Assembly (NCBI GenBank): GCA_016219645.1
Contig: JACRLR010000019.1
Location: 1-64,000, forward strand
Length of the DNA: 64,000 nt
Reading direction: 5' to 3'
DNA from: Nitrospirota bacterium
GTDB lineage: Bacteria > Nitrospirota > Nitrospiria > Nitrospirales > Nitrospiraceae
Numbering within the stretch: position 1 is the stretch's first letter; every line of letters begins with the position of its first letter. The position numbers and the translations under genes were made by a program. Shown in pieces: positions 25,817 through 43,281 of the stretch. A model generated the notes under the pieces. The model was not told the origin of the DNA. It saw only the letters and a program-made list of their open reading frames with translations, and ran no database searches.

Positions 25817-25901
25817 GGATGCACCAGTCTCCAATTGTAGCCCACTCTCAAATTTACTATCAGCGGGACCAAACTAACTCCTTACTACCATCCTTCTCAC
25901 T

Positions 25902-25995
25902 GGGGGTGGCTGGGATGATTCCAACTGCGCGCGTCGGACGAGCACATTCTTATCGTGCGCGTTCCGCGAGCAAAGGGATCGTCGCAGCTACCCCC
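25902..25995 (+). repeat. Hairpin element copy 1
   Basis: Arms 25902-25922 and 25975-25995 pair over 21 bases with one mismatch and three G-T wobbles. The core carries the family motifs TGCGCGCGTC, GCAC...GTGC apical stem and CGCGAGCA. It ends five bases before the stop of the DUF4177 gene. The strand given is the one on which wobble pairs form. Confidence 0.85.
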
Positions 25996-26000
25996 TTCTC

Positions 26001-26347: not shown

Positions 26348-26445
26348 GGGATGGGGGCTGATTGATCTTCTACTGCGCGCGTCCAACGAGGGCCTTCTCA
26401 GGCCGCGCGTTGCGCGAGCACAGAAGATCGTCAGCCTCCATCCCC
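26348..26445 (+). repeat. Hairpin element copy 2
   Basis: Arms 26348-26371 and 26422-26445 pair over about 23 bases. Inner stem CAAC/GTTG and apical stem GGCC/GGCC (on the canonical strand) replace GAAC/GTTC and GCAC/GTGC of the other copies, keeping pairing. It ends about eight bases before the polA stop codon on the facing side. Confidence 0.85.
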
Positions 26446-34011: not shown

Positions 34012-34591
34012 GCGTCCTCTATCCTCTCATGTCCGCATGAATTTGGCGATTTCAATAGGAATTTGACTATAGTCTCCGCTCAATTTTCTTGTCAAGGAAG
34101 GGGAGGATGGAATGACACCCGTGCTGATCCCTTGCTCCCGGAGCGCGCACGATCAGAATGTGCTCGCTCGACGGCCGCAGGGGGATCAACACAGGTGCCA
34201 TTCCAAGGGAAAGAGAACAAGCAAGCCTGGAGGGAGCAGTTATATCGTTGGACGCGCGTAGTGGGAGACCGAGCAGGTTACCCCGTTATAGGAAGTACTG
34301 GGTTGTGGCAGAAAAGAATGCGAAGATGCAGTCGCTCAATGCGCGCAGTGAAGGACAGTCTGGCCGCTCTCTTCTTAGAGCTCGAAAACGCATACCGAAG
34401 AAAACCCTCAGCGAAACGCGGAAGGAAGGTGGGTCCAGCTGTTCCGTTTATAGCCGGGAGGATCATTCGGCGCCAAGTGGCTTGACGTTCCGTGACCCAC
34501 TCGCTATATTTACAAAGTCTAAGTTGGTACTTCCAGCAGATGCTCGCTGCCCTGCCAGCGATTCGAATTCGTCCAGTGCGGATCGCTCTTC
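34012..34591. other. Repeat-rich intergenic region with one intact and two decayed hairpin elements
   Basis: No gene is supported. It contains hairpin element copy 3 (34109-34204), a right-half remnant at about 34236-34280 (TCGTTGGACGCGCG) and another at about 34329-34365 (TCGCTCAATGCGCGCAGTG). Open frames here change phase with the repeats and have no protein-like character. Confidence 0.6.
34109..34204 (-). repeat. Hairpin element copy 3
   Basis: Arms 34109-34131 and 34182-34204 pair over 23 bases; the three non-matching positions are all G-T wobbles when read on the minus strand. The inner stem is GAGC/GCTC, a compensatory change from GAAC/GTTC. The apical stem is GCAC/GTGC with loop GATCAGAAT. 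Confidence 0.85.
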
Positions 34592-41456: not shown

Positions 41457-41887
41457 TTTCGTGTGAATTCCAGTTTGCTGATGGAGGGTTCGTACAGTGC
41501 CTGAATGACCGTTCCGTCCGGATCGCAAAAGTAAAAAGAGTAACTGCCATCGCGGTGCTGTTTCGGCTGCTTCAAAATTTTCCCGCCCAGCTGCGCGAGG
41601 CGAGGTTCAATCTCCCGATACATCCGGTCGACTGCCTCAGGACTCTCAAGAATCACGCCGATATGATCCAACAGTTGCCCAGTCAAGGGTTGATAGGATG
41701 GAAGCTCGGAGGGAGGAATCTGATGTAACGCGAAATTATCCGAACCGGAGCTGAAATACACATTGTCCGCATCCGGCTCCCATACCACCTTCATTCCCAA
41801 CAACTCTTCATAGAATGTGCGAGAACGAGCCAGGTTTCTGACGCGCAACGCCACATGGCGTAATCCTCGATGGAGTGGAACAGTCAT
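41450..41887 (-). CDS. Glyoxalase/VOC-family protein
   Basis: 145 residues forming two beta-alpha-beta-beta-beta modules. Metal-ligand candidates are His in GLRHVALRV, His in LLDHIGVIL and Glu in IQALYEP. VOC enzymes include glyoxalases, dioxygenases and antibiotic-resistance proteins; no specific one can be chosen. ATG 41887 follows GAGGA by about six bases. The stop codon lies in the arm of a heptamer array, so the C-terminal residues RNG may come from repeat insertion. Confidence 0.8.
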   Translation of the reverse strand: MTVPLHRGLRHVALRVRNLARSRTFYEELLGMKVVWEPDADNVYFSSGSDNFALHQIPPSELPSYQPLTGQLLDHIGVILESPEAVDRMYREIEPRLAQLGGKILKQPKQHRDGSYSFYFCDPDGTVIQALYEPSISKLEFTRNG

Positions 41888-41984
41888 AGCTATCCTCAAT
41901 CGTGACCGTATAGTAGGGAGCGACTATGACTCCGTCAATCGAAAATCCCAAGCAGGAAGCTGTAAGAGCCCGCCAGCAGGGAGA

Positions 41985-42194
41985 GGGATGGCCCCGATGA
42001 GTCCCCTGTGCTCGCGCAACGCGCGCCCTCGGAAGGATGGGAAGGGCAGCCTGGCCGTCCTCCTGCTCGCGGAACGCGCACGATAAGAATGTGCTCGTTC
42101 GACGCGCGCAATCGAGGAACGACCAGGCTACCCTCGAACATGTAATGGGAGGATTGAATGGACGCGCGCAGTGGGGGACCATCCGGGCCATCCC
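41985..42194 (-). repeat. Hairpin element copy 4, interrupted by copy 5
   Basis: Outer arms 41985-42006 and 42173-42194 (GGGATGGCC on the left, GGCCATCCC on the right) pair. The core halves TGCTCGCGCAACGCGC and GACGCGCGCAGTG are separated by the inner element, showing that these units can insert into each other. Confidence 0.75.
42043..42134 (-). repeat. Hairpin element copy 5, nested
   Basis: Arms 42043-42062 and 42114-42134 (AGGGCAGCCTGGCC left, its partner GACCAGGCTACCCT right) with two G-T wobbles on the minus strand. The core has all motifs: TGCTCGCGGAAC, GCAC loop GATAAGAAT GTGC, GTTCGACGCGCGCA. Confidence 0.85.
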
Positions 42195-42235
42195 GGGACA
42201 ACATCAATGAGCAAGCTTGGAAGAACTATTTCATT

Positions 42236-42322
42236 GCTCGCTGCGGCCTTGCTTGGGACGAGGCGCCTCTCGGCGCGCCAGGGTCAGGGGGGGAGAAGTT
42301 CAGGCTTTTTGAGCATCCTATG
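42236..42322. mobile_element. Decayed MITE family B remnant
   Basis: CTCGCTGCGGCCTTGCT followed, after an insertion, by CTTTTTGAGCATCCT matches the right-hand end of the family-B MITE. The left end is missing. Confidence 0.55.
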
Positions 42323-42429
42323 TCCTGTACTTCTGGTGCCAGATCGATGGCTGCGTCTCCAATCTCGGCTTATGGTATGGTGAGGATGCCCACACTTCCG
42401 ATGTAAATTTGAGTTTTTCATTCAGGGCC

Positions 42430-43281
42430 ATGACACAAAATCAGAGTTTTAGAGGATTGGCGGTGGCCGCGTTCGAAAGCCGTATGGCAACGGAGATGGC
42501 TCGATTGATCGAACGGTACGGCGGCCGACCCTTTGTGGCTCCTGCCCTCCGGGAAATCCCCATTCAGGACAATCCCACTGTGCTGCAGTTCGGCGCCAGA
42601 CTGATTGACGGGCAGGTCGACATTCTCATCCTCATGACTGGCATCGGCACGACGACTCTCTTCGAAATTCTACGTTCGCACCACCGCATGCCATCGATCA
42701 TGGAGGGGCTCAATCGGACGGCGATAGTCACTCGTGGCCCGAAGCCGGTTGCAGCACTCAAGGCCCTTGGCATCATCCCGACACTCACTGTGCCGGAACC
42801 GAACACGTGGACAGAGGTCGTCGCGACGCTTGATGAATATCGGCCTGTCAGAGGCCTCCGCGTCGCTGTCCAAGAATACGGCGTATCCAATCCGGATCTC
42901 TTGAATGCCATGAGACAACGTGGCGCCGAGGTCTTTCCCGTGCCCATTTACCGTTGGGCGCTTCCCGAAGACAAGGGCCCGTTGGAACAGGTGCTCGGAA
43001 GGATCATGGCTGGGGGGATAGAGGTAATGCTGGTCACCAACGCTGCGCAGATCGATCATGTCATGCAATTACTCGAAGAGGAAGACGCGACCGCGCAGTT
43101 CAAGCTGGCATGCAAGAAGATGGTCGTCGCGTCCATCGGCCCCACAGCCAGTGAACGACTCCGTCATCACGGTCTCCCTATCGACTTCGAACCGTCCCAC
43201 CCAAAGATGGGCATCCTGGTCAAAGAAATCTCCGAACAGATTTACTCTCTGCGTGAAGCAAAAATAGCGAAGCAACTGTAG
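42430..43281 (+). CDS. Uroporphyrinogen-III synthase-like protein (HEM4 family)
   Basis: 283 residues of the two-lobed HemD/HEM4 fold: an N-terminal lobe beginning GLAVAAFESRMATEMARLI, VDILILMTGIGTTTLF, and the second lobe with IEVMLVTNAAQIDHVMQLL and MVVASIGPTASERLRHHGL (shown as VASIGPTASERLRHHGL). HemD cyclises hydroxymethylbilane in heme, siroheme and d1 heme synthesis. No other heme gene is near, so it may be a stand-alone or regulatory paralogue. ATG 42430 is preferred over TTG 42409. The region upstream is full of repeats. Confidence 0.8.
   Translation: MTQNQSFRGLAVAAFESRMATEMARLIERYGGRPFVAPALREIPIQDNPTVLQFGARLIDGQVDILILMTGIGTTTLFEILRSHHRMPSIMEGLNRTAIVTRGPKPVAALKALGIIPTLTVPEPNTWTEVVATLDEYRPVRGLRVAVQEYGVSNPDLLNAMRQRGAEVFPVPIYRWALPEDKGPLEQVLGRIMAGGIEVMLVTNAAQIDHVMQLLEEEDATAQFKLACKKMVVASIGPTASERLRHHGLPIDFEPSHPKMGILVKEISEQIYSLREAKIAKQL

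Follow-up and report, generated by a model that had tools for sequence, protein, structure and literature searches.

How does one hairpin come to lie inside another of the same kind? The question is raised by a 210-nt element at positions 41985 to 42194 of a 64,000-nt stretch of DNA (hereafter the window) from a Nitrospirota genome, which on its sequence we take to be that of a Nitrospira. The original prediction was that a complete 92-bp inner copy with its own arms splits the core of an outer copy, and that this nesting reveals a unit that moves as a discrete element and prefers its own core as a target. We consider it quite probable that the element belongs to a composite palindromic Nitrospira repeat whose units insert into the loops of their own kind, and that the window copy is an old composite that has been amplified.

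The element is a hairpin, and a second hairpin from the same family interrupts its 47-bp core; all parts of the element lie on the plus strand. The outer left arm, of an arm family (b) that recurs in other copies, occupies the left end (41985 to 42008) and pairs with the outer right arm (42171 to 42194). Next to the left arm stands the left half of the outer core, TGCTCGCGCAACGCGCGCCCTCGGAA (42009 to 42034), which resembles intact cores over their left half, ends in the apical loop TCGGAA, and breaks off at the same point as other nested copies. A 9-bp leader, GGATGGGAA (42035 to 42043), separates this loop from the inner arm; it is common to most nests of inner families a and c and absent from the standalone a copies inspected. 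The inner element consists of a left arm of family a (42044 to 42063), an intact copy of the conserved 47-bp family core (42064 to 42110), recognized from core pattern counts and base-pair covariation, and a right arm (42111 to 42133) that pairs with the left one. It is followed by a 27-bp tail (42134 to 42160), which resembles the tails of most other a-type nests in both length and sequence, and then by the right remnant of the outer core, GACGCGCGCA (42161 to 42170). The segment GGCCCTCGTTG, which precedes this remnant in intact cores, is missing, and the outer core is thus short of about 11 bp of its right half. The outer and inner arm duplexes have energies of -42.9 and -29.2 kcal/mol, values reached by 0 of 5000 same-spacing controls from the window in either case, and the fold of the whole 210 nt has a z score of -5.6 against dinucleotide shuffles. 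The element has 55 matches in the genome. The predicted coordinates and hairpin-in-hairpin structure are borne out, as is a complete inner copy with its own arms splitting the outer core. A clean 92-bp insertion is not what we find: the inner unit proper measures 90 bp (42044 to 42133), and the insert adds the leader and the tail.

The element is flanked by two divergent genes, which encode a glyoxalase-fold (VOC) protein and a HemD-type uroporphyrinogen-III synthase; the pair is kept in relatives. Around it lies a third, outermost hairpin, AGCAGGAAGCTGTAAGAG...AGGCTTTTTGAGCATCCT (41951 to 42319, no strand assigned), a diverged copy of a GCAGGATGCTGAAAAAG...CTTTTTGAGCATCCTGC module that occurs at the syntenic VOC-hemD site of three relatives (L041, L042, and L049). 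There the outermost hairpin, as GCAGGATGCTGAAAAAG...TTTTTGAGCATCCTGC or close variants, stands at the same point without the 210-bp element; a further group of relatives (L045 to L048 and L052) has the site without the outermost hairpin as well. Because the 210-bp element sits within an outermost hairpin that relatives have alone, we read the locus as three nested hairpin levels. Across 41900 to 42408, the composite lies between two motifs kept in relatives, GTATAGTAGGG on the VOC side and TATGGTAYGRT on the hemD side. Both are intact, and they are possibly the promoters of the divergent genes.

The basic unit of the family is a hairpin of about 90 to 100 bp. Its conserved 47-bp core forms a stem-loop of its own, with TCNGAA as the apical loop, and stands between arms of 20 to 24 bp. 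The arms vary between copies yet pair within each copy: pairing of an arm with its own partner averages -37 kcal/mol, versus -22 kcal/mol with the arms of other copies. By eye, GTAG, the type of head conserved in REP/REPIN palindromes, occurs within family a and f arms and is absent from those of b and e. Among 115 distinct cores, the core helix shows many double compensatory changes, and several of its pairs exceed all 200 shuffles. In 864 kb of the window's genome the core occurs 51 times and a reversed control pattern not once, which extrapolates to about 200 to 215 copies in that genome, a figure that is perhaps somewhat high, as part of the sampled contigs were picked for holding matches. 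The copies avoid genes, with 15 of the 51 in open reading frames of at least 150 amino acids, whereas such frames, crudely called, cover 79% of the sequence. The window itself holds two further single-core copies on the minus strand, within 500 bp of one another (25898 to 25998 and 26356 to 26434), and a degenerate or compound copy at 34100 to 34390 that matches pieces of the 210-bp element. Elsewhere, two copies about 5 kb apart in opposite orientation (L105:4646-4746 and L105:9563-9663) have identical family d arms and cores that differ once.

Strong covariation of both core and arms would also be expected if these structures were chiefly structured RNAs or terminators under selection, with nesting as a peripheral extension of the stem. 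We regard this as very improbable: there is no Rfam covariance-model match up to E = 1 across 41800 to 42500, the copy at the VOC-hemD site stands between divergent genes and is missing from relatives, and some 200 copies are dispersed in the genome.

By sequence-profile search, the family is present in all 32 genomes of the genus, most of them with at least 66 scored matches. The same search found 2 to 35 matches in five genomes of sister genera, and one match each in 2 of 24 genomes from the rest of the order. The model behind it (R1) served solely as a sequence profile for distribution, as its MAFFT-based consensus structure misaligned the arms and retained only 11 pairs. For the exact core, the named records among the matches listed are Nitrospira, Nitrospiraceae, Nitrospirae, or Nitrospirota metagenome-assembled genomes. 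The family is apparently undescribed: the literature searched, in which subscription journals are thinly covered, holds no description of it in Nitrospira, and one survey merely counts palindromes in N. moscoviensis.

Is the core a preferred target, as predicted? About 55 to 60 distinct nested copies are interrupted where the host core has its apical loop, TCNGAA (54 are tabulated, and about 60 result when copies with a degenerate inner core are included). The break falls at position 12 in 39 cases and at positions 9 to 11, which also belong to the loop, in 16, with few further on; apparent breaks at positions 0 to 7 are mostly chance matches of the short anchor. The inner units represent no fewer than five arm families (a, c, c', g, and h) and the hosts several, and one locus (L108) is a triple nest. 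All classifiable loop inserts are units of the hairpin family, and no full-length IS was present in those examined. In most c, c', and h nests the motif TYNGAA precedes the right half of the host, as a doubled loop would produce. Another type of insert, GGGCTMATGGCACGTCTCGGCGTGCCAGTGGGTGGGCGGGTGAGAA, lies in the right half of host cores and not in the loop (L196 from position 1543 onward, L210, L129, L202, and L230); the corresponding core is uninterrupted in L288.

The most direct view of an insertion comes from a site shared by five loci, which adjoins a conserved neighboring unit and has flanks roughly 84 to 96% identical. In L288 the site holds an intact simple core, TGCTCGCGCAACACGCGGCTTCAGAAGACCCTCGCTGGACACGCGCA. 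In L196, L210, and L129 the host likewise has a continuous loop region, and further along comes another insert, the GGCACG module; L210 and L129 are near-identical at the site, possibly from the same or sister genomes, and so perhaps do not count independently. In L211 an additional c' unit fills the loop, the sequence running GGCCTCAGAA, then the insert TGATTCGAGGG...GTTGGGGAA, then TCAGAAGGCC, with the 6-bp loop sequence TCAGAA at both ends of the insert. The simplest history would be one gain in the L211 lineage with duplication of the 6-bp loop. A less simple alternative would be that several lineages lost the insert by precise deletion between the 6-bp repeats, which takes at least two losses against one gain. 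This is the single nested insertion seen in both states in synteny, and of the 6-bp duplications, seen in nested copies, one is exact and others are eroded. A long syntenic stretch between two genomes (G043 and G062), with collinear matches over about 14 kb, held no further insertion polymorphism, and several other indels between relatives (L207/L166, L240/L226, and L054/L050) have ends too unclean to define a target duplication. Taking the recurrent break point with its several inner families together with the syntenic case, we conclude that the loop of the core is a genuine hotspot for insertion. The predicted insertion of the unit as a discrete element is likewise upheld, mostly by evidence from outside the window locus.

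The window copy itself does not demonstrate insertion in the way first supposed. Essentially all of the approximately 38 nests of an a unit in an outer unit share the loss from the right half of the host: GGCCCTCGTTG is kept in essentially none of them, versus 11 of 12 c, c', and h nests, once two a-type cases flagged as keeping it are discounted (L139 is a miscalled c unit and L132 a chance match). Given this common loss, the a-type nests, window copy included, most likely go back to a single old nesting, whose product was then copied as a ready-made composite. The a-type double core is found between differing outer arms (b in the window; e, f, and others elsewhere), and its outer arms are mismatched in 10 of 28 composites versus 25 of 256 single-core copies. 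Based on these two observations, recombination between copies has probably also moved the double core. Left and right arms from different families, apparent products of recombination, occur at L075:7941-8041, L081:11491-11591, L005, L122, L124, and L128.

Should recombination then replace transposition altogether? On that account, repeats with core halves in common give rise to nests and spread them through homologous recombination, template switching, and local duplication, and the mismatched arms and the several outer arm families of the a composite do speak for it. We nevertheless judge it rather unlikely. At the L211 locus a complete unit has been cleanly gained, precisely within the loop, and the flanks are otherwise collinear; different inner families have one break point in common; and dispersal to hundreds of sites is left unexplained by recombination alone. 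Our preferred reading of units inserting into loops of their own kind, for its part, needs recombination as an extra assumption to account for the different outer arms of the a composite.

Under this preferred reading, the units would move as small nonautonomous elements. A putative enzyme would recognize the folded core and make cuts staggered by about 6 nt in the host loop, probably when the hairpin is extruded or the DNA is single-stranded. The window composite would go back to an a unit that became nested, once and long ago, in an outer unit; the double core would then have been amplified and shuffled between outer arms via recombination among repeats. In this lineage, the composite would finally have landed between the divergent VOC and hemD genes, within an older hairpin that resembles a terminator. 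It counts against this explanation that we found no mobilizing enzyme or autonomous partner for the hairpin family.

One candidate for that enzyme is RAYT, a Y1 HUH transposase, which would make the family a REP/REPIN set. The copies are indeed intergenic, high-copy, imperfect palindromes that form mosaic compounds as in BIMEs, and the window's genome has one Y1 gene. RAYT genes, however, are described as invariably flanked by two inverted REPs (PMC2817692), and a core lies within flanks of about 1.5 kb at only 1 of 20 Y1 loci scanned, some of them shortened by contig ends. Moreover, Y1 matches are absent from 13 of the 32 Nitrospira genomes, among them three that are each 99% complete (G001, G008, and G017), and all 13 carry the family, most of them densely. 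Because the Y1-less genomes are mostly repeat-rich and the Y1 genes are not flanked by cores, RAYT is unlikely to mobilize the family; we rejected it on these grounds and consider a RAYT-driven origin highly improbable. A broader formulation, which we offer only tentatively and would not expect to hold in full, is that these are self-nesting mobile hairpins that recognize their own folded core, enter its apical loop with a 6-nt duplication, build compounds up to three deep, and depend not on a Y1 transposase but on another enzyme.

The family is an abundant, apparently undescribed repeat in a major nitrite-oxidizing genus, and its insertion target, the loop of another unit like it, is sharply defined. 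The syntenic pair of states before and after insertion makes the movement of short palindromic repeats testable outside the REP-RAYT system. Through its chimeric arms the family also marks recombination junctions, and it may complicate short-read assembly of Nitrospira.

In kind, the family is REP- or MITE-like, and its design of conserved core and variable arms, together with nesting in its own loops, is unusual. Like REP/BIME and REPIN-RAYT sequences, the units are high-copy, intergenic, imperfect palindromes with mosaic compounds and compensatory stem changes. They differ in being longer (about 90 to 100 bp), in combining a conserved core with variable arms, in needing no RAYT, the Y1 genes being without flanking cores, and in nesting within each other instead of merely lying side by side. 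Palindromic repeats are known as preferred insertion sites, as REPs are targeted by IS1397, ISKpn1, IS621, and ISPpu9 (PMC1525189); the Nitrospira repeat is a preferred target too, but what enters it is a noncoding unit of the same family and not an IS. Bacterial MITEs such as Correia/NEMIS, RUP, and RPE are short, noncoding, hairpin-forming mobile repeats without a transposase gene (PMC2229807), and the Nitrospira units are similarly short, noncoding, hairpin forming, and dispersed. In these units the core is conserved and the arms vary from one subfamily to the next. This is the reverse of a typical MITE, in which the terminal inverted repeats are the conserved part.
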